This document shows positions 27,146-36,099 of a stretch of 64,000 nucleotides of DNA, in pieces; the first letter of the stretch is position 1, and every line of letters begins with the position of its first letter. Where the stretch lies: positions 577,467 through 641,466 of the forward strand of contig NZ_BBRD01000001.1 of NCBI RefSeq assembly GCF_000975095.1. The letters are read 5' to 3'. The notes below the pieces were generated by a model. It saw only the letters and a list, made by a program, of their open reading frames with translations, searched no databases and was not told the origin of the DNA. A program made the position numbers and the translations under genes. The DNA comes from Demequina aestuarii (lineage in GTDB: Bacteria; Actinomycetota; Actinomycetes; Actinomycetales; Demequinaceae).

Positions 27146-28333
27146 TCAGCGGCCGCCGAGCATCGCGTCGACGCGTTCGGGAGAGAGGGCGTGGTGGATC
27201 GCGAGCATGCTCGCGCCCTGGATCGCGGCGTTCGCGCCTGACCGGGACTGCGCGATCTGCAGGTTGCCGGTCGCGAGTGGCATCGACCGTGTGTAGATCA
27301 CTTCGCGGGCGCCCGCGAGCAGGTGCTCTCCGGCGTGAGCGATCGAGCCGCCGAGCACGATCACTGCGGGATTGATGAGGCTGACGCACGTGGTGAGGAC
27401 CTCGCCGATGAGACGGCCGGCCTCTCGCACCGCCTGGATCGCAGTGGTGTTGCCCCCCTTGACCAGGGCGGCGACATCGGCGCTGGTCTCGACCTCGAGG
27501 CCGCTCTCGCGCAGCTGGCGCGCGATGGCGGGCCCCGCGGCGATCGCCTCGAGGCAGCCGAAGTTTCCGCATCGGCACACCACGTCCTTGCCGCTGGGAA
27601 CGTAGACGTGTCCGATGTCGCCGGCGATGCCCTGTGCTCCGCGCTGCAGGTAGCCGCCGGAGATCACGCCCGAGCCGATGCCGGTCGCGACCTTCACGAA
27701 GATGAAGTGGTCGACACCCGGCCACGACATGTCGCGTTCGCCGAGCGCCATGATGTTCACGTCGTTGTCCACCAGCACCGGGACGCCGAACCGTTGGCCC
27801 AGGTGCTGAGGCACGTCGTAGCGGTCCCAGCCGGGCATGATCGGCGGGTCGATGGGCAGCCCGCTCGAGTGCTCCACTGGCCCCGGGAGGCCGACGCCGA
27901 TCGCGAGCAGGCCGTCGGTGGCGCCATGGGCGGCGAGGAGCTCGGTGGCGGCGGTCGCGACCCAGCCCAGCACGGCTTCAGGCCCCTCGGCGACCTCCAT
28001 CGCGACCGAGTCCTGTCCCAGCAGGGCGCCGCTGAGGTCCGCGATGGCGATGCGGGCGTGTGACGCGCCGATGTCGACGCCGAGGACGACGCGGCCGGAC
28101 GAGTTGATGGCGAACTGGCTCGACGGCCGCCCACCGGTGGAGACGGCATCGCCGACCGGCGACACGAGCCCGAGCTTGACGAGCGAGTCGACTCGCGCAG
28201 CGACCGTGGAACGCGCCAGCCCCGTGATGCTCGCGAGCTCTGACCGAGTGCGCGCGCGACCGTCGCGAAGAATCTGGAAGAGGTCCGTCGTGGGGGAGTC
28301 GCCCAACGAGTCCTGTGCCTTTACGTCGACCAT
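27146..28333 (-). CDS. ROK family transcriptional repressor
   Basis: 395 residues. N-terminal winged helix-turn-helix (about residues 15-75; RTRSELASITGLARSTVAARVDSL), then a ROK sugar-kinase-like domain with the ATP/phosphate loop VLGVDIGASHARIAI (about 83-97), DNDVNIMALGE (about 190-200), the ROK zinc motif CRCGNFGCLEA (about 255-265, Cys-x-Cys-x4-Cys), and a His upstream in GDIGHVYV. As the protein has both a DNA-binding domain and a sugar-binding ROK domain it is a sugar-responsive repressor (Mlc/NagC-like). It is convergent with the dehydrogenase/isomerase genes and probably controls that locus, since its candidate operator recurs at 23479. Confidence 0.93.
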   Translation of the reverse strand: MVDVKAQDSLGDSPTTDLFQILRDGRARTRSELASITGLARSTVAARVDSLVKLGLVSPVGDAVSTGGRPSSQFAINSSGRVVLGVDIGASHARIAIADLSGALLGQDSVAMEVAEGPEAVLGWVATAATELLAAHGATDGLLAIGVGLPGPVEHSSGLPIDPPIMPGWDRYDVPQHLGQRFGVPVLVDNDVNIMALGERDMSWPGVDHFIFVKVATGIGSGVISGGYLQRGAQGIAGDIGHVYVPSGKDVVCRCGNFGCLEAIAAGPAIARQLRESGLEVETSADVAALVKGGNTTAIQAVREAGRLIGEVLTTCVSLINPAVIVLGGSIAHAGEHLLAGAREVIYTRSMPLATGNLQIAQSRSGANAAIQGASMLAIHHALSPERVDAMLGGR

Positions 28334-28339
28334 GGTCGT

Positions 28340-28345
28340 ATCTTA
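28340..28345 (-). promoter_or_regulatory. -10 box TAAGAT of leaderless ROK gene
   Basis: TAAGAT on the minus strand lies 6 nt before the ATG at 28333 and lies within the left arm of the candidate ROK operator at 28341-28366, which predicts autorepression. Confidence 0.55.
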
Positions 28346-28366
28346 TCGTGGCGTGACGGCATAAGA
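28341..28366. promoter_or_regulatory. Candidate ROK operator (TCTTAT-N14-ATAAGA)
   Basis: A perfect 6-bp inverted repeat overlaps the ROK gene's -10 box. It shares the TTAT-N14-ATAA core and spacing with the site at 23479-23500 upstream of the sugar-binding protein. Confidence 0.55.
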
Positions 28367-28454
28367 GTCGCGACTTTGGTCTTGGGCCGTCGTTACCTCG
28401 CCACTTGTGCGGTGGCGGCGTACGGGCCACGACCGATTCTCGGATACGAGATAT

Positions 28455-28483
28455 TTGAGACAGTGCCCCTGCGGTGGTAGCGT
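28455..28483 (+). promoter_or_regulatory. rho promoter
   Basis: TTGAGA (28455-28460), 17-nt spacer, TAGCGT (28478-28483): a good match to a principal-sigma promoter. The start of transcription is expected near 28490, leaving a leader of about 150 nt. Confidence 0.65.
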
Positions 28484-28640
28484 GGGCGTTGCTTCCCCCG
28501 GACGGCAACCGGCCCCGGCGGATAGCAATCCCATATCATTCAGGCGTTCGCGAACGATGGCGTATGCGCATCCCCGCCGCATGGGAGTATCTCGCACTGT
28601 TCAAGAGCCAGATGGGCTCGTGCGAGGGAAGGATTCTTCA
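28484..28640 (+). other. Long rho leader, no gene seen
   Basis: About 150 nt of C-rich then AT-richer sequence lies between the rho promoter and GTG. It contains a 12-bp perfect palindrome CGTTCGCGAACG (28545-28556). Rho is autoregulated by premature termination in several bacteria and long leaders are usual; a direct role here is inference. No coding signal was found. Confidence 0.45.
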
Positions 28641-30557
28641 GTGACAGACACCACCGTGGCCGGCCCCGATAAGGGCGCGGCCCTCAGCGCCATGAAACTC
28701 CCTCAGTTGCAGGCACTCGCCTCCGAGCTCGGAGTATCTGGCGTCAAGAAGATGCGAAAGAGCGACCTCGTGGAGGCGATCAACAACGGTGGAGCCGTGC
28801 CTTCCAAGGCCGACGCCCCCGCCCCGGATGCGCCCAAGAACGACACTGAACGCGGTCACGGCCGCGGTCAGCAGAAGTCCTCGGAGATCGACGTCCCTGC
28901 GGAGGGTCAGGGCAGCGACAGCTCTCAGTCCTCCGAGCGGTCCGCGTCCGACGGTCAGCGGTCGGGCGCCGATCAGCCCTCTGGCCAGCAGTCAGCCGGG
29001 CAGCGTCGCGGTCGAGGTGACCGCGGCTCGAAGAGCGAGACCGACGCGGAGCGCGACGAGCGCGCCCGTCGCGCCGCCGAGGCCGTGCAGTCCGCAGGCA
29101 ATGCCCGGTCCGAGGACGACTCGTCCAAGGGCGAGGGCCGTGGGGGTCGCAACAACGACCGCACCTCCAACGACAACCGCGACCGCAACGACCGCGGCAA
29201 CGACAACCGTGATCGCAATGACCGCGGCAACGACAACCGCCACAACAACGATGACGATGACGAGCGCGGTGGCCGTCGGCGCCGTGGCCGTGGCCGTGGG
29301 CGTGGCCGCAACCGCGACGAGCGCGGCGGCAGCACCACCGGAGGCGCCAGCAACGAGCCCCAGGGCCGCTTCGACGAGGACGACGCCCGTGACGACGAGG
29401 AGCTGAGCCCCGTGGGCGGCATCGTCGACGTGCTCGACTCGTACGCCTTCATCCGCACCACGGGGTACTTGGCAGGCAAGTCCGACGTGTATGTCTCCAT
29501 GAACCAGGTCCGCAAGTACGGCCTGCGCAAGGGTGACGCCATGACGGGCACTGTCCGCCCGCCCCGCCCGGGCGAGCGCGGCCAGCGACAGAAGTTCAAC
29601 GCGCTCGCGACGGTCGACACGGTCAACGGGGTCAGCCCCGAGGAGGCCAAGACCCGCAGGGAGTTCGGCGACCTCACTCCGCTGTACCCCCAGGAGCGTC
29701 TGCACCTCGAGACCGAGACCCGCAACCTCACCAACCGGGTGATCGACATCGTCGCGCCCATCGGTAAGGGCCAGCGTGGCCTCATCGTGTCGCCGCCCAA
29801 GGCGGGCAAGACGCTCGTGATGCAGTCCATCGCGAACGCGATCAGCGCGAACAACCCTGAGGTTCACCTGATGGTGGTGCTCGTGGACGAGCGTCCCGAG
29901 GAGGTCACCGACTTCCAGCGCTCCGTCAAGGGCGAGGTCATCGCCTCGACATTCGACCGCCCGGCGGTTGACCACACCCAGGTGGCGGAACTCGCGATCG
30001 AGCGGGCCAAGCGCCTGGTCGAGCTGGGTCAGGATGTCGTGGTGCTTCTCGACGGCATCACCCGCCTGGGCCGCGCCTACAACCTGGCCGCCCCCGCATC
30101 GGGCCGCATCCTCTCCGGTGGTGTGGACAGTGCCGCGCTGTACCCGCCCAAGAAGTTCTTCGGCGCCGCGCGCAACATCGAGCACGGCGGCTCGCTGACC
30201 ATTCTCGCCACGGCGCTGGTCGACACCGGTTCCAAGATGGACGAGGTGATCTTCGAGGAGTTCAAGGGCACCGGCAACATGGAGCTGCGCCTGTCGCGTC
30301 AGCTTGCCGACCGCCGCATCTTCCCGGCCGTGGACGTGAACTCGTCCGGCACGCGCCGCGAGGAGATCCTGGTCTCGACCGAGGAGCTCAAGGTCATGTG
30401 GAAGCTCCGCCGCGTGCTGTCCGGGCTGGAGTCCGTCGCCGCGACCGAGCTGCTGCTGGGCAGGCTCAGGGACCACAAGACGAACGCCGAGTTCCTGATG
30501 CAGGTCGCCAAGACCACGCCGGACAAGAATGGCGAGAACGAGCTCACCTCGAAGTAA
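28641..30557 (+). CDS. rho: Transcription termination factor Rho
   Basis: 638 residues, longer than the 419 of E. coli because of an actinobacterial insertion. Order: Rho_N helical domain (about residues 15-50; [20 protein letters not shown]), a low-complexity insertion (about 55-250) first Ser/Gln/Lys-rich, then with [10 protein letters not shown] repeated and an Arg-Gly run, then the RNA-binding CSD ([15 protein letters not shown], about 257-271), and the RecA-type ATPase with Walker A PPKAGKT (about 386-392) and Walker [17 protein letters not shown]. The hexameric helicase terminates transcripts. GTG 28641 follows a GGGAAGGA ribosome-binding site. The insertion is expected to bind RNA and may promote condensation. 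Confidence 0.97.
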
Positions 30558-30621
30558 GCGGTTCGCTCACGCACGAAGGCCCGGCATCGGCCGTCCGTCC
30601 CGCTCTGCCCCTGCGCGCTAC

Positions 30622-30668
30622 AGGGACTTGAGTGCAGTTCTTGCGCAGAATCCTGCACTCAAGTCCCT
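30622..30668. repeat. Palindromic repeat copy 1
   Basis: 16-bp perfect arms (AGGGACTTGAGTGCAG at 30622-30637 and its complement at 30653-30668) enclose a 15-nt partly self-complementary loop. It lies between the convergent rho and sigma-factor genes. It shares the GGGAC-TGAGTGC core with copies at 31943 and 32983. Confidence 0.85.
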
Positions 30669-30673
30669 CCAGG

Positions 30674-30696
30674 GTGCCCGGCTAGTACTAGGGCAC
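30674..30696. terminator. Imperfect hairpin containing CTAGTACTAG
   Basis: GTGCCC and GGGCAC arms flank CTAG-TA-CTAG, with a 2-nt bulge. It covers the stop codon of the sigma-factor gene. It probably terminates that gene; CTAG-rich sequence is unusual in this GC-rich DNA. Confidence 0.4.
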
Positions 30697-31185
30697 GCCG
30701 CCGATGGCCGATGCGAGCCTCGCTTCCAGTGCGTGCCTCGCTCTCGCGTACCGGCCGCGGGCGGTCGAAGCGTTGACGCCCACCACTGTCGCTGCGTCGG
30801 CGAGGGTCATGCTCTCCCAGTGAACGAGCTCCACGAGTTCGCGCTGATTGTCCGGAAGCGTTGCGACAGCTCGTCGGACGTCCATCGCTAGCGCGTCGTC
30901 TGGTTCCGACGGGATCGGGGCGTGCGCGGAGACCTTCTCGACGAGCCGCAGGCCGCGTCGCGTGTCGCGGCCGTAGCCTCGTAGGCTCATGCGTGCGATG
31001 CCGAAGAGCCAGGGGCGCAGTTCAGCTCGATCGGACGGCGCATCGTCGCGACGTCGCCAGGCGACCAGCATCGTCTCTCCCAGGAGGTCCGCGGCCTGAT
31101 CAGGCTCTCGCCTCTGGAGATAGCGGAGGATGTCTGCGCCGTGCTCGCTCAGCGCATCGGCAAGGGCGCCGTCGCCGGCGGTCAC
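30688..31185 (-). CDS. ECF-type sigma factor (sigma-70 family)
   Basis: 165 residues from GTG 31185. Region 2 (about residues 10-75): LSEHGADILRYLQRRE, DLLGETMLVAWRR, LRPWLFGIARMSLRGYGR. Region 4 (about 100-150): LPDNQRELVELVHWESMTLADAA followed by the recognition helix GVNASTARGRYARARHAL. It would direct RNA polymerase to specific promoters. The start overlaps the stop of the upstream membrane-protein gene by 4 bp (GTGA), with GAGGTGGG as ribosome-binding site, so the pair is translationally coupled; a sigma gene placed after its partner is the reverse of the usual order. Confidence 0.88.
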   Translation of the reverse strand: MTAGDGALADALSEHGADILRYLQRREPDQAADLLGETMLVAWRRRDDAPSDRAELRPWLFGIARMSLRGYGRDTRRGLRLVEKVSAHAPIPSEPDDALAMDVRRAVATLPDNQRELVELVHWESMTLADAATVVGVNASTARGRYARARHALEARLASAIGGVP

Positions 31186-31895
31186 TTGCCCACCTCGCAC
31201 GCGCTGTCGGGGACGAGATCACGGAACGGGTCCACGATGTCGGACTCGAGGCCGTCAAGGATCACGCGGGCGTAGGCGTGGTCGAAGGTCTCATTCGCGT
31301 GCGTCGACGTCATCGGGACGCCGTCGAGTTCGGCAGTGCCAGCGGCGAGGTCCAGACGTGCCACCTCGTCGTAGGCGGCGTCGATCCACGATTCCCACGT
31401 CGAGCGGTCCGCGATCTCCTGCTTGTTCTCGTTCTCGTCGTACTCGGTGAGGGACTCCTCGCGCACAGCGCCGCCATCGGCCGCCAGCAACGCCTCGGGT
31501 TCGCTGAGCCGTGACCGGATCTCCGCGGTTTGGCGTTCCGTGAGGTTGAAGCCCACCAGCCGCATCGCACAGCGATAGCCGTCAGCATCGGTGTAGACCC
31601 ACTCGATGTGCGCGGGCATCGCCTTCCACTGTTCAGCGGTGAGCATGTAGGGATCATCGGTGACGGGACGGTCGGGCAGCACGGCCACGGCACCGGCTCC
31701 ACCGAGGCCGATGACCGCAAGCGCACCCGCACCAAGTGCCGCGCGGCGCTTCCATGCAGAGCGTCGGGGCGCGGCCGTTCTTGCCTCGTGAACGAGAAGG
31801 GTGATCGCTGATTCGAGCCCGGGTCCGTCTGAGGTGGAGGGCGGAGCCGAGCGCGCGAGGATGTCGTCGAGGTCATTCATCGGTGATGTGTTCAT
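31182..31895 (-). CDS. Membrane protein paired with sigma factor (possible anti-sigma)
   Basis: 237 residues. Cytoplasmic N-terminus of about 50 residues (MNTSPMNDLDDILARSAPPS), one membrane helix (about 50-72; LGAGALAVIGLGGAGAVAVL) and an extracytoplasmic acidic domain of about 165 residues with no recognised fold and two cysteines (about residues 109 and 233). Topology and 4-bp coupling to an ECF sigma gene suggest an anti-sigma factor, but the N-terminal segment lacks the HxxxCxxC motif of zinc anti-sigma domains. It lies directly beside repeat copy 2. An alternative start is ATG 31877. Confidence 0.65.
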   Translation of the reverse strand: MNTSPMNDLDDILARSAPPSTSDGPGLESAITLLVHEARTAAPRRSAWKRRAALGAGALAVIGLGGAGAVAVLPDRPVTDDPYMLTAEQWKAMPAHIEWVYTDADGYRCAMRLVGFNLTERQTAEIRSRLSEPEALLAADGGAVREESLTEYDENENKQEIADRSTWESWIDAAYDEVARLDLAAGTAELDGVPMTSTHANETFDHAYARVILDGLESDIVDPFRDLVPDSACEVGK

Positions 31896-31942
31896 GCTCT
31901 CTCATGCCAGATCGGTTCCGAAGTGTCCGCGCCCCGTGCTCG

Positions 31943-31997
31943 CTGGAGGGACATGAGTGCAGGATCCGGCTGTATTCCGGCACTCATGTCCCTCCAG
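31943..31997. repeat. Palindromic repeat copy 2
   Basis: 18-bp perfect arms (CTGGAGGGACATGAGTGC at 31943-31960, complement at 31980-31997) enclose a 19-nt loop. The right arm supplies the stop codon of the DUF559 gene (31984-31986). Confidence 0.9.
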
Positions 31998-32982
31998 GAC
32001 GCGATAGGCGACCGGCGACGACGGCCAGGACCCGTTGGCGGCTTCTCTCAGGGCGGCGCACGATGTCGTCCCACCCAAGCCGGACGGTGAGGTAGCCCGC
32101 CTCCGCCAAGTCGTTCTGTCGGTCACGGTCGTGATCGCGCGCCTCACGCGCCGAGTGGTAAAGGTCGCCGTCGAGCTCGACCACCACCTTGGCCGCACGG
32201 TGGAGCATGTCGACGGTTGCACGCCGCGAAGCCAGGCGAAGGTCCGCTTGCCACTCGAAGTCGCGAAAACGCGCATCGGCGAACGTCTCGTGCTTGGCGC
32301 GCACCTCGAGGGGAGAGGTTGCTCCCTCCTTGAACCAGCGGAGGACTCTGTCGAGATCTCGCCTTCCAGCGACGCGCGGGGACCTGGCCGACTCGCGCGC
32401 CAGCGCCTGCCACGTGCAGACCCGCGCCCACAGCGCCTCGTAGAGGAGGTTGCGACGGTCAGCCGGGGCCGCGTACCGCCACGCGTCGAGGAGCGCTCGC
32501 TCGGGCACGGTGCACGAGACGCCTTGCGGAAGGCCGCGCGCCCGCATCGGCCCTCCTTGGAGGCACCGAACCCAGGGGGGAACGCGGGGACGAAAGCCAT
32601 CGATCACACGGACGTGGGCAAGCGGGGGAGCAGGCAGCACCTCCGCGTACAGGTGCAGAGCGAGTGGCCCGGAGACGAGCCCGGCGGGATGCCAGAGGTT
32701 CAAGGCCTCACCGCGCACCAGCGCGACGGTCTGATGAGCGGCGCCGCAATACACCCCGGGCAGAACGCGCCTTGCGTTGCCTTCCGCCACGGCGCGTTCG
32801 AGTGCCGTCCTCGTCCAGCGCCCAAGCAGATCCGCTCGGCTGAATGCGTGGACATTCGCGGAGAGGAAGACGGGGAGTTCGTCGCTGAGTCGGACGAGGT
32901 CTGGAATGGGACGCATGAAGGCATCTGAGCGGTGGTGTGTCGTTGAGGGAAGCGGGCAGCAGCGCCTTTGTGGATCGTCCAT
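31984..32982 (-). CDS. DUF559 (Vsr-like endonuclease fold) protein with AbiEi-like N-terminus
   Basis: 332 residues, or 310 if ATG 32916 is used. The C-terminal DUF559 domain (about residues 240-325) has [21 protein letters not shown] (ExD-G--H...R...D-R), then [18 protein letters not shown], the PD-(D/E)xK/Vsr-like pattern with a plausible catalytic Asp. The N-terminal two thirds (about 25-200; [28 protein letters not shown]) looks like the helix-turn-helix AbiEi-type domain commonly joined to DUF559 in actinobacteria. The gene is delimited exactly by two palindromic repeats: its stop is inside copy 2 and ATG 32982 touches copy 3. There is no clear ribosome-binding site, so the start is uncertain. 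The nuclease role is inferred. Confidence 0.75.
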
Positions 32983-33047
32983 GCGCTCTGGAGGGACATG
33001 GACGCCGGATCGCGGCCGGATCGTGCACTCATGTCCCTCCAGAGCGC
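32983..33047. repeat. Palindromic repeat copy 3
   Basis: 18-bp perfect arms (GCGCTCTGGAGGGACATG at 32983-33000, complement at 33030-33047) enclose a 29-nt loop containing two copies of GCCGGATCG. Its left edge abuts the DUF559 start codon. Compared with copy 2, the inner TGAGTGC part is intact only on the right side. Confidence 0.9.
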
Positions 33048-33197
33048 GTAGGGAGGGCGGGTGCGGCGGTTCGGCTCAGGGCGGACGGCAGGCAAGTGGC
33101 CTCGCGCGCACGGACGTGGCAGAATAGACCGCTGGCCGTCCGGTTCACCGACCGCGAAGTACGCGCGAGGACCCGGAGGCATCTCAAAGGGAGATTC

Positions 33198-33404
33198 ATG
33201 AAGAAGGATATTCACCCCGAGTACGTGGCCACCACTGTCACGTGCACCTGCGGTTCCACGTTCGAGACCATGTCCACCGTGAAGTCCGGCGCCATCAGCG
33301 TCGAGGTCTGCTCGGCGTGCCACCCGTTCTACACCGGCAAGCAGAAGATTCTCGACACCGGCGGCCGCGTGGCCCGCTTCGAGAAGCGCTACGGGAACAA
33401 GTAG
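33198..33404 (+). CDS. rpmE: Ribosomal protein bL31 (zinc-binding form)
   Basis: 68 residues, with [20 protein letters not shown] at the start. Two cysteines in TCTCGS (about residues 16-18) and two in [13 protein letters not shown] (about 36-39) form the zinc site of the Cys-containing type of L31; the C-terminus [11 protein letters not shown] is conserved. Part of the large ribosomal subunit. An AAAGGGAGA ribosome-binding site precedes the ATG. The 150 bp between repeat copy 3 and this gene holds no gene; CAGAAT near 33119 may be part of the promoter. prfA follows after 21 bp. Confidence 0.97.
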
Positions 33405-33425
33405 TCCGACAAGCTTCGAGACGAC

Positions 33426-34511
33426 GTGGCCGAAGCCTTCGCTGCCGTCCTGCCTCTGCTGGACGAGTACGCCGATATCGAGCATCAGCTCTCGCAACCT
33501 GACGTCCATGCGGACGCCGGGCGCGCGCGCAAACTCGGGCGTCGCTTTGCGGAGCTCGGCCGCGTCGTCGCTGCGCATCGGGCCTGGGAGTCCGCGCAGG
33601 AGGATCTCGAAGCCGCCCGCGGCATGGCCGATGCGGACCCCGAGTTCGCCGCCGAGGTGCCCGCTCTCGAGCAGGCAGCGGAGGACGCCACCGAGAAGCT
33701 CCGGCGCATCCTGATTCCGCGCGACCCCGACGACTCCCGCGACGTGATCCTCGAGATCAAGTCCGGCGAGGGCGGCGAGGAGTCGGCGCTGTTCGCGGGC
33801 GACCTACTCAAGATGTATCTCAAGTTCGCCGAGTCGCGCGGATGGCAGGCCGAGGTCCTCGAGGCCACCCCCACCGACATGGGCGGGTTCAAGGACATCT
33901 CAGTGGCGATCAAGGCCAAGGGCGCCGTCGACCCGGAGAACGGCGTGTGGGCTCACCTCAAGTACGAGGGCGGCGTCCACCGCGTGCAGCGCGTGCCCGC
34001 CACCGAGTCGCAGGGCCGCATCCACACCTCAGCCGCCGGCGTGCTGGTCTACCCCGAGGTGGAGACCGTCGAGGAGGTGCAGATCGACATGAACGACGTC
34101 CGCGTCGACGTGTACCGCTCCTCGGGCCCTGGAGGCCAGTCCGTCAACACCACCGACTCCGCCGTCCGGCTCACGCACGAGCCCACAGGAATCGTGGTGA
34201 GCTGCCAGAACGAGAAGAGCCAGCTCCAGAACAAGGAGTCAGCCATGCGGATCCTGCGCGCGCGGATTCTCGCCGCGCAGAAGGAGGCGGCCGATGCGGA
34301 GGCTCAGGACATCCGCAAGTCCCAGGTCCGCACGGTGGACCGCTCCGAGCGCATCCGCACCTACAACTACCCCGAGAACCGCATCGCGGATCACCGCACG
34401 GGGTACAAGGCCTACAACCTCGACCACGTGCTGTCCGGGGACCTCGGCCCCGTGGTGCAGTCCGCGATCGATGCAGACGAGGCCGCCCGACTCGAAGCCC
34501 ACGGAGACTGA
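33426..34511 (+). CDS. prfA: Peptide chain release factor 1
   Basis: 361 residues. Releases the finished peptide at UAA and UAG codons. The catalytic GGQ is in [18 protein letters not shown] (about residues 235-252); the stop-codon recognition segment [16 protein letters not shown] (about 187-202) carries the PxT motif typical of RF1 (PAT here), which distinguishes it from RF2. An N-terminal coiled coil occupies about 1-100. Start GTG 33426. The methyltransferase that modifies its GGQ glutamine, PrmC, is encoded 3 bp downstream. Confidence 0.98.
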
Positions 34512-34514
34512 CTG

Positions 34515-35411
34515 ATGCCCAGCGTTGGCGCGCGGTTGCGCGGTATTGCGTCGCGCCTCGCGGAGGCCGGGGTGCCTTCTCCTGAGGCCGATGCCGTCGC
34601 CCTGATCGCCCATACGTTCGGCTGGTCTCGCGGCGAGGTGCGCACCGCCGCCGCCCGCGACGATCACTGGCCCGAGGATCCGCTCGACTTCGATCTGCTC
34701 GAGGCGCGCGTGGAGCGTCGCATGGGCCGCGAGCCCCTGCAGCACATCACCGGCACGGCGTACTTCCGCGACCTCGAGCTGCAGGTGGGCGACGGCGTGT
34801 TCATCCCGCGCCCCGAGACGGAGACCGTCGCGCAGGCCGCCATCGACGCGGCGCGAGCTGCCAGGCCAAACCGCGACGGCCGCGTCCGCGTGACGGATCT
34901 GTGCTCAGGGTCCGGCGCCATCGGACTGTCGATCGCGAGCGAGGTCGAGCACGCCGAGGTGACCATGCTCGAGGCGAGCGAGGGTGCCCTCGTGTACCTG
35001 CGACTCAACGCCCGATTCATGCCGGCCGACGTGCGGCCGCGGGTGCGCACCGTGCTCGGCGACGCGAGGCGCTGTCTGCACCTGTTCGATGGCTGCGCCG
35101 ACGTCGTCGTCACGAACCCGCCGTACATCCCTCCGGACGGCGTCCCCCGAGACCCCGAGGTGCGCGACTACGACCCGCCCGAGGCGCTCTACGGGATGGG
35201 CAAGGACGGCCTGGACCTGCCGCGCGCCATCATCGACGAGGCGGCACGCCTGTTGCGCGTGGGTGGCACGCTGATCATGGAGCACGGTGACGACCAGGGT
35301 CCTGCGCTGCGCGCCTTCGTCCAGCGCTCCGAGTTCTGGGCCGATGCGCGTACGGAGCAGGACCTGAACGGACGCGATCGGATGCTCATCGCTACCCGTG
35401 TGGGCGTCTGA
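34515..35411 (+). CDS. prmC: Release factor glutamine methyltransferase
   Basis: 298 residues. Methylates the glutamine of the GGQ motif of release factors with S-adenosylmethionine. N-terminal helical domain (about 1-85), then the SAM-binding motif VTDLCSGSGAIGLSIA (about residues 124-139) and the active-site VVTNPPYIP (about 197-205, NPPY). The usual acidic motif between them is LEASEGALVYLRLN. It follows prfA directly in the same transcript. Confidence 0.95.
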   Translation: MPSVGARLRGIASRLAEAGVPSPEADAVALIAHTFGWSRGEVRTAAARDDHWPEDPLDFDLLEARVERRMGREPLQHITGTAYFRDLELQVGDGVFIPRPETETVAQAAIDAARAARPNRDGRVRVTDLCSGSGAIGLSIASEVEHAEVTMLEASEGALVYLRLNARFMPADVRPRVRTVLGDARRCLHLFDGCADVVVTNPPYIPPDGVPRDPEVRDYDPPEALYGMGKDGLDLPRAIIDEAARLLRVGGTLIMEHGDDQGPALRAFVQRSEFWADARTEQDLNGRDRMLIATRVGV

Positions 35412-35424
35412 CACACTGAATCCC

Positions 35425-36099
35425 GTGATCTACCCCTGCTTTGATCCCGCCACCTGGGGACCGAGCCTGGACGCCGCCGTCGACGCGGTGCAGCGCGGTG
35501 CCGTCGTCGTGCTGCCGACCGACACCGTCTACGGGGTCGGGGCGGATGCGTTCCAACCGACGGCAGTGGTGGCGGTTCTCGCGGCCAAGGGTCGAGGACG
35601 CCAGATGCCTCCTCCCGTCCTGATTCCCGACGTGCGCACGGTCGACGGCCTCGCACGCGACGTTCCCGCTCCTGCGCGAGCGCTCATGGAGCAGTTGTGG
35701 CCGGGGGCCCTCACGGTCATCGTCCACGCCCAGCCGTCGCTCGCCTGGGACCTTGGCGAGACCCACGGGACGGTCGCTCTCCGGCAGCCAGACCACGGCG
35801 CCGCGCTCGCGCTGCTGCGGCGTACTGGACCCCTGGCGGTGACGAGCGCCAACCTCACGGGTCAGCCCGCCGCCACCACGGCCGAAGGTGCGAGAGACCA
35901 GCTCGGAGACGCCGTCGCGGTGTATCTCGACGGTGGCGACAGTCCGCTTGGCACGGCCTCGACCATCGTCGACGCCACGGATCCGGCGGGACTCCGGGTG
36001 GTGCGCGACGGGGGCGTGCCACGCGCGCGGCTCATCGAGATCGCGGGTGCCGAGTCGTTCGCGCCCGAGCCGCAGGTCGAAGGCGAGCCCGACGGGTGA
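35425..36099 (+). CDS. Threonylcarbamoyl-AMP synthase (Sua5/YrdC family)
   Basis: 224 residues. Makes threonylcarbamoyl-AMP for t6A modification of ANN-decoding tRNAs. Visible: GAVVVLPTDTVYGVGADAF (about residues 25-43), the KGRGRQMPPPVLI loop (K-R-----P, about 53-66), WPGALTVIV (about 92-100), and PLAVTSANLTGQPA (SAN motif, about 135-148). It has the short form without a Sua5 C-terminal domain. GTG 35425 lies 7 nt after CACACT, a leaderless-like -10. wecA overlaps its stop by 4 bp. Confidence 0.93.
   Translation: MIYPCFDPATWGPSLDAAVDAVQRGAVVVLPTDTVYGVGADAFQPTAVVAVLAAKGRGRQMPPPVLIPDVRTVDGLARDVPAPARALMEQLWPGALTVIVHAQPSLAWDLGETHGTVALRQPDHGAALALLRRTGPLAVTSANLTGQPAATTAEGARDQLGDAVAVYLDGGDSPLGTASTIVDATDPAGLRVVRDGGVPRARLIEIAGAESFAPEPQVEGEPDG

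Follow-up and report, generated by a model that had tools for sequence, protein, structure and literature searches.

A DUF559 nuclease gene bounded by palindromes in Demequina aestuarii suggests a possible small mobile-DNA system of a kind not yet described

The stretch of DNA analyzed here (the window) comprises 64,000 nucleotides of the Demequina aestuarii genome (contig NZ_BBRD01000001.1, positions 577,467 to 641,466). It carries a gene for a DUF559 protein, in a neighbourhood that includes the genes for rho, ribosomal protein L31, release factor 1 and an ECF sigma factor as well as one more gene. A palindrome is found at each end of the DUF559 gene, and the unit of palindrome, gene and palindrome occupies window positions 31938-33047. 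The features referred to throughout are listed below; the coordinates of the hairpins take in flanking bases, and bit scores refer to R1, a covariance model built on 11 copies of the palindrome type found here.

30610..30680, no strand assigned: palindrome copy 1 (solo), between the convergent rho and ECF sigma genes; 75.4 bits (R1)
31935..32005, no strand assigned: palindrome copy 2, at the 3' end of the DUF559 unit, holding the stop codon of the gene; 81.5 bits (R1)
31984..32916, reverse strand: gene for the DUF559 nuclease (PD-(D/E)XK, Vsr-like), encoding 310 aa from the start codon at 32916 that homologues conserve
32338..32892, reverse strand: predicted AbiEi-like two-domain DNA reader, residues ~9-193 (match to 6y8q)
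31984..32322, reverse strand: nuclease domain, residues ~199-310 (matches to 3r3p, 3hrl and 1cw0)
32980..33050, no strand assigned: palindrome copy 3, bounding the DUF559 unit on its 5' side, with the DUF559 start to one side and rpmE to the other; 77.3 bits (R1)

The palindromes are ~60-70 bp in size, with arms of ~22 nt; copies 1-3 measure ~65-70 bp. Whichever strand is folded, copies 1-3 are far more stable than their shuffled counterparts (z -5.7 to -7.4), and none of 200 shuffles reached the same stability. When up to 3 mismatches are allowed, the arm ACTCATGTCCCTCCAG is found seven times in the window, six of them within the three hairpins, as compared to 0.65 expected occurrences. Copy 1 has CTTGAGT/ACTCAAG where arms elsewhere are of the CATGAGT type, such that both arms are altered together; among the 11 aligned copies, 7 of 22 pairs are altered on both sides at least once with pairing kept. 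A search of positions 28000-36000 against Rfam (E<=1) gave no match at the palindromes, and a sigma-70/terminator scan found no terminators at them.

The original prediction described the gene as lying exactly between two palindromes, with its stop codon in the right arm of copy 2 and its first ATG touching copy 3. This geometry is confirmed by the coordinates, as the stop codon TGA (31984-31986) falls within the right arm of copy 2 and the most upstream in-frame ATG (32980-32982), which would give a protein of 332 aa, lies directly against the arm of copy 3 (first base 32983). The exact fit applies to the stop and to this upstream ATG but not to the start conserved among homologues, i.e., ATG 32914-32916, which is located ~65-66 nt inward of copy 3. 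Homologue starts were assigned by a script that took the start codon nearest the position of ATG 32914-32916; the start so chosen has an identical alignment offset in 27 of 61 homologues, 51 of the 61 are then 302-313 aa long, and the start column is M in all 16 alignment rows displayed. In the 14 of 24 close relatives that have a 5' hairpin, the median gap from hairpin to start codon is 64.5 nt. Of 24 loci of the clade examined, 19 have a 3' hairpin, and in 15 of these it extends over the end of the coding sequence.

Comparison with genome G034 sets 31942-33047 apart as a separate block with 78.3% identity, as compared to 90.3% and 91.7% in the two flanks (~5.8 kb each). The boundary of the unit is nevertheless approximate, since identity on the rpmE side stays at 0.80-0.85 per 20 nt up to ~33120 and since G034 lacks the neighbouring genes opposite. 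A Pfam scan of the two adjacent genes on that opposite side identified the ECF sigma gene and one gene without a Pfam family; the L31 gene lies on the other side. The ECF sigma gene and its partner (30688-31895) themselves sit between copies 1 and 2, and, because G034 lacks this pair while its flanks are 90-92% identical (~5.8 kb), the palindromes may bound the ECF sigma pair or promote its loss. Separately, a match to the L31-Actinobacteria leader RNA was seen at 33135-33180, just upstream of the L31 gene (33198-33404), with 25 bits against a gathering score of 35.

The combination of an AbiEi-like N-terminal region with a Vsr-like domain, proposed initially from the letters alone, is upheld as a prediction by an AlphaFold2 model (mean pLDDT 90.7) and its fold matches. 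The structure matched by residues 9-193 is that of AbiEi (6y8q; Z 8.6 with an rmsd of 5.8 over 182; E 4e-5 in Foldseek), and residues 199-305 match the Neisseria endonuclease-like protein 3hrl (Z 12.9); the nuclease part also matches I-Bth0305I (3r3p; Z 12.4, rmsd 2.2 over 95), Vsr (1cw0; Z 9.6) and, weakly, TnsA of Tn7 (1f1z; Z 6.2). In Pfam, the window protein scores above the curated threshold for PF04480 (DUF559; 31.5 bits vs. a cut-off of 20.6) and just under the one for PF18741 (MTES_1575; 37.7 vs. 38.2 bits), with a weak match to AbiEi_4 and to no other family. At E<=0.01, PF18741 was detected in 57 of 57 homologues, PF04480 in 53 and AbiEi_4 in 8; this alignment omits four of the 61 homologues (L130, L131, L162 and L166) that have an internal stop in the frame used, all of which were kept in the flank tests described below. 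Ten residues are invariant in the 57 homologues, among them E204, D236, E247, D249, G250, H254, D263 and R266; E204, D236, E247, D249, H254 and D263 are putative catalytic residues. Judging from the structural model, we predict a fusion protein in which an inverted-repeat reader of the AbiEi type is joined to a nuclease of the Vsr/I-Bth0305I type.

Within the D. aestuarii genome, R1 identified 17 places at E<=1, of which 16 remain at E<=0.01; 11 are strong copies, and 9 of these do not flank a DUF559 gene. According to our own reading of the ORF lists, the strong copies are located between five convergent, four tandem and two divergent gene pairs, with most of the convergent-site copies positioned shortly 3' of a stop codon. 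Across 59 genomes, R1 matched in 32, including 31 of the 37 genomes of the genus and one of 22 others (weakly). R1 found 0 copies in G022 even though this genome carries palindromes of another type; the model is blind to such types, and flanks were therefore compared without it. The D. aestuarii genome has a single close copy of the DUF559 gene and at least five other DUF559-like genes, all distant paralogues; the others listed are ~26-32% identical where an identity is given. The location of 5 of 11 strong copies between convergent genes, mostly just past a stop codon, the 9 of 11 strong copies without a flanked DUF559 gene and the stability of the hairpins as RNA (by folding) would fit ordinary dispersed palindromes, i.e., bidirectional terminators or REP-like elements, that happen to lie beside an unrelated DUF559 gene. 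We consider this explanation very improbable, as it does not account for palindrome types that are matched and genome-specific, or for matched flanks that recur, with unrelated sequences, in other families.

Besides those of the window gene, flanks were compared for 60 DUF559 loci drawn from 34 genomes of the genus (61 in total, two of the 60 being paralogues from the same genome as the window), with homologues taken nearly in score order among the matches listed. The flank score is that of a local alignment between the upstream and downstream flank of a gene; flanks with a score of at least 26 were classified as matched, and the 99th percentile of the score in 610 random placements was 26.0. 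Matched flanks were found for 40 of 61 DUF559 genes as compared to 7 of 338 other predicted genes at the same loci (one of the seven, a frame in L130, scoring 51); these control genes are our own ORF predictions (longest frames of at least 200 aa that are GC-rich at the third codon position) and do not come from an annotation. Hairpins are present on both sides of many DUF559 genes; their sequences are alike within such a pair but differ between genes. In a cognate-pairing test with 70 loci (the 61 plus nine more), a gene's own 3' flank was the best match of its 5' flank in 43 and among the top three in 61, as compared to a mean of 1.03 and a maximum of 7 in 2000 permutations. Distant paralogues often have inverted repeats that are not palindromic (e.g., the nearly perfect repeats of ~60 nt at L165), and a search for hairpins only missed distant members with non-palindromic inverted or direct repeats. 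A chance neighbourhood of ordinary repeats and a gene was rejected on the basis of the flank-matching results.

The view of gene and palindromes as one unit is borne out, and the pairing recurs across the genus and beyond it. With regard to the suggested check of whether one palindrome flanks other DUF559 genes too, matched repeats were found as described above, and homologues have palindrome types of their own. Two observations had been named in advance as speaking against the association, i.e., homologues without flanking repeats and repeats without association to DUF559 genes. Taken literally, both were made, as 21 of 61 homologues have flank scores below 26 and 9 of 11 strong palindromes here flank no DUF559 gene; the pairing stands despite this, since the two flanks of a DUF559 gene resemble each other far more closely than those of controls do.

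Matched flanks were also found outside the genus. A score of 26 was reached by 16 of the 28 DUF559 loci scored in other families of the order, as compared to 0 of 756 cross-locus pairs, and in a phylum-wide sample 5 of 21 loci did so, as compared to 0 of 420 cross-locus pairs; one of the scored phylum loci (L396) belongs to the same order. The scored sets leave out L299 from the 29 order loci and seven members of the 28 phylum loci (six without a matching frame and one with a short flank). Among the order loci, L322, L325 and L326 were picked by hand before their flanks were seen, L321, L323 and L324 are repeats of L315, L316 and L293 and were counted once, L308, first placed in a 696-codon frame, was rescored at 27.0, and L327, misplaced in a 1025-codon frame, was left without rescoring. 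Repeat sequences look unrelated between loci (e.g., L294, L311, L318, L325 and L384). For order and phylum combined, matched repeats were found for 20 of 37 loci with a profile match starting by residue 100 and for 1 of 12 starting at residue 165 or later (Fisher p 0.007), which is suggestive of late-starting matches having matched repeats less often, with the flank position of these 12 loci being extrapolated. In another lineage of the phylum, L389 is a DUF559 gene with very long inverted flanks (score 145.5) that resemble an insertion sequence.

A close orthologue of the window gene is located beside rpmE (the rho-rpmE home) in 21 of 37 genomes, with rho several kb away in G011 and G019; the rpmE query, shifted by one base from the reading frame, was used purely to mark the position. 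Among the 16 genomes without an orthologue there, 15 were examined. G015 and G020 have no such palindrome and spacers of 190 and 129 nt, respectively, and G027, G036, G016, G006, G021 and G007 have a solo hairpin in spacers of 261-479 nt; spacers of 2.9-3.4 kb are found in G004, G009, G023, G024 and G025, with such a hairpin in G023, while G018 has a spacer of 655 nt and G008 one of 304 nt without a clear hairpin. For five of the six genomes with a solo hairpin in a short spacer, the solo type was compared with that of a nuclease elsewhere in the same genome; the types are clearly the same in G006, G027 and G021 and not in G036 and G016. In G006, specifically, rho-rpmE holds no DUF559 gene and has a palindrome of the type of the nuclease at clpC-AKR. 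The latter spacer is a second home: nine genomes have a DUF559 gene there, while G000 and G034 have a solo palindrome. On the tree, the nine genomes require five label changes, at least three of them forced by well-supported branches. The DUF559 genes at clpC-AKR (L140, L142, L145, L149, L150, L155, L156, L138 and L141) come from several clades. The clpC-AKR spacer looks like a shared landing site for DUF559 genes.

Four members of the rho-rpmE clade are located elsewhere. After hemW, aligned flanks are 32 nt apart in G001 as compared to ~1.5 kb in G027, which has a unit there, and the next spacer is 16 nt in G001 as compared to ~320 nt, with a solo palindrome, in G027; G004 has neither this unit nor the solo palindrome of the next spacer. 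The same neighbour gene is present within ~730 nt of hemW in 19 of 29 other genomes read. No target-site duplication was noticed in an unsystematic look, no near-identical copies of the unit came to light, and the hemW spacers are too diverged for junctions to be read. A single-gene transposon that moves frequently, as might have been envisaged from the window, fits poorly with an orthologue kept at rho-rpmE in 21 of 37 genomes, others at clpC-AKR and solo palindromes that are dispersed. The related proposal of a classical insertion sequence, where the DUF559 protein would act by cut-and-paste transposition on terminal repeats formed by the palindromes or inverted repeats, would be in line with units present or absent at defined sites, with the long, mostly non-palindromic inverted repeats of the distant members L165, L164, L171 and L389, and with the (weak) similarity in fold to TnsA. 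A TnsA-type nuclease on its own is not known to join strands, however, and a whole palindrome at each end, common solo palindromes and diverged members that recur at few home sites argue in the opposite direction; we thus rate this proposal as improbable.

Genome-wide counts suggest a relationship between palindrome type and resident nuclease. The DUF559 gene of G006 (L156) is flanked by GTGGTACCAATC; this sequence occurs 22 times in G006, three times in G016, once in G005 and 0 times in the 34 other genomes, and its reversed control occurs 0 times in all 37. With up to 2 mismatches allowed, GCGAGGTGCTCAGTGC occurs 20-39 times per genome in the five genomes with DUF559 flanks of that type, as assigned by eye, as compared to a median of 10 in the 32 other genomes (reversed control 2-12, mean 6.1). 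G006, G016 and G019 nevertheless each have at least 20 GCGAGGTGCTCAGTGC arms, a type that, again by eye, was not seen beside any DUF559 gene fetched from these genomes; either these arms are relics or the rule is loose.

The leuB-ilvE spacer, read in 30 of 37 genomes, holds a palindrome in most of them, with the type varying. Scoring covered 25 of the 30 (G015, G007 and G004 have no flanks and G017 and G005 no hairpin), and the scored hairpin of G027 is a run of G and C. When the leuB-ilvE palindromes were scored against the DUF559 flanks of their own genome (n=25), the mean was 24.7 as compared to a permuted mean of 14.6 (maximum 19.9 in 5000 permutations), and the own type was the best in 8 of 25 genomes, as compared to 0.85 expected and a maximum of 5 in permutations. 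These sequence comparisons suggest that a solo copy at a fixed site is often of the type found beside the nuclease of the same genome. The leuB-ilvE palindromes of G034, G023, G014 and G016, however, match their own fetched DUF559 flanks poorly. G000 and G034 are 93.8% identical around leuB, yet their types differ at both leuB-ilvE and clpC-AKR. A strict rule linking type and nuclease is weakened by G034, since no well-matching nuclease is found among those fetched. The palindromes at leuB-ilvE and clpC-AKR in G034 (L232 and L330) are of the GTGCATGAG type, to which none of its fetched DUF559 genes matches well; they are possibly orphans of a lost nuclease.

Palindrome similarity tracks the AbiEi-like part of the protein (rho 0.37 and 0.50) more closely than the nuclease part (0.18) in 193 pairs of homologues with 45-70% identity. 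Such pairs are not independent, and over all pairs of 38 elements the contrast is small (0.27 and 0.28 vs. 0.20); the Mantel rho for these 38 elements has the modest value of 0.24, which was reached in 2 of 2000 permutations. At the sequence level, palindrome type thus appears to follow the AbiEi part more than the nuclease part, with a small contrast over all pairs. In the part of PMC7319586 that was available, AbiEi and Rv2827c each bind their own 23-bp inverted repeats, which are located in their own promoters, and do not bind those of the other protein. Together with the 5' palindrome at a median of 64.5 nt ahead of the start codon (14 of 24 loci), these observations would be compatible with autoregulation only, where the AbiEi-like part binds the palindromes as operators of its own gene and dispersed copies represent a regulon or sites spread by chance, without movement. 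We regard this as unlikely, though not to the degree of an insertion sequence, as one palindrome lies at the 3' end, over the stop codon, and 5 of 11 strong copies lie between convergent genes (own reading of ORF lists); autoregulation also provides no account of the hemW unit in G027, of the change of type at orthologous spacers or of the invariant nuclease site.

Overall, we favor, as probable, an explanation in which the unit is a nuclease gene bounded by its own recognition palindromes, with scattered solo palindromes representing non-autonomous copies of its ends that are spread by repair copying. This explanation builds on the matched flanks, the differing types, the genome-specific copies, the presence and absence of the unit and the hosting of several clades by one spacer, all of which were observed, and further draws on the invariant residues of active-site type and the predicted fold. 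The recognition, cutting and copying or overwriting of palindromes are inferred. Under the proposed mechanism, the AbiEi part would read both palindrome arms, or the hairpin once formed, and the nuclease part would nick or cut at the palindrome; recombination repair would then copy the palindrome into intergenic sites, and the whole palindrome-gene-palindrome unit would be copied only rarely. Copying would also target sites already occupied by a palindrome of another type, and would tend to keep nuclease and palindrome type in step, in the manner of REP/RAYT but with an unrelated enzyme. A more far-reaching version, which we advance tentatively and consider somewhat less likely to hold than not to, is that these units form an undescribed class of palindrome-copying elements in Actinomycetota, in which an AbiEi-guided Vsr-type nuclease overwrites the palindromes of rivals at fixed intergenic sites; if the resident nuclease does overwrite palindromes, the dispersed copies of each genome would therefore be continuously rebranded. 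The palindromes could instead serve in self-marking or defence, either by marking the host genome or by guiding the nuclease against DNA that lacks or carries the mark. AbiE systems are abortive-infection modules (PMC3985639, as far as the part available goes), and a PADLOC scan gave weak matches to the nuclease part of candidate defence proteins; as no methylase or partner gene was noticed between copies 2 and 3, and as the copies are few (11 strong) and unevenly placed, a role in defence seems remote.

An enzyme and a palindrome that change together across related species point to a kind of small mobile-DNA system that is undescribed, and the titles and abstract openings covered in the open-access literature held no description of DUF559 together with flanking repeats, palindromes or inverted repeats. 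Several known systems share parts of its architecture. Vsr-like (EDxHD) homing nucleases such as I-Bth0305I are alike in the predicted fold of the catalytic domain, but here the predicted reader is AbiEi-like, the gene has palindromes of its own at both ends, and no intron or intein was noticed. The mismatch-nicking enzymes Vsr and VsrA share the DUF559/Vsr nuclease domain, with TG mismatch repair as the role predicted in PMC12907096; they differ in that an AbiEi part and flanking palindromes go unmentioned in the portion of that source covered. AbiEi antitoxins of type IV toxin-antitoxin systems resemble residues 9-193 in their predicted two-domain fold and in repeat length (arms of ~22 nt here vs. 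23 bp in AbiEi; PMC7319586, available in part). Unlike these antitoxins, the protein described here is fused to a nuclease, its repeats are found on both sides of the gene and dispersed, and no AbiEii-type toxin gene was noticed beside the DUF559 gene. If the favored explanation is true, these elements would supply many natural enzyme/target pairs for AbiEi-type DNA reading; AbiEi-DUF559 proteins, whose nuclease family is listed by Pfam as one of unknown function, gain a testable role, and a class of intergenic palindromes in actinobacterial genomes would be accounted for.

REP-type palindromes are common across bacteria, and HUH-type RAYTs are the sole dedicated enzymes named for them in those parts of the literature that were covered. 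REP/RAYT or TnpA-REP systems (REPtrons and TIRtrons), as described in the available parts of PMC3733652 and PMC8266576, comprise an enzyme gene flanked by palindromes, dispersed non-autonomous intergenic copies and co-evolution of enzyme and repeat. The DUF559 system is not a member of this group since the HUH enzyme and the GTAG tag are absent; RAYTs are HUH/Y1 enzymes, while the protein described here is an AbiEi/PD-(D/E)XK fusion that lacks the HUH motif and catalytic Tyr of IS200/IS605 and matches other families (by Pfam and fold), and the GTAG that tags REPs is not common to the 11 aligned copies. The palindromes also differ in size (20-40 bp for REPs vs. ~60-70 bp here). The two systems are nevertheless alike in that the enzyme gene is flanked by palindromes that are also dispersed in the genome, and in that palindromes are found in some lineages and inverted repeats in others, a dichotomy also reported for RAYT-type genes (PMC3733652, available part). 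If our reading is true, a second, unrelated enzyme would show the same architecture and co-evolution, and systems of this kind would have arisen more than once.
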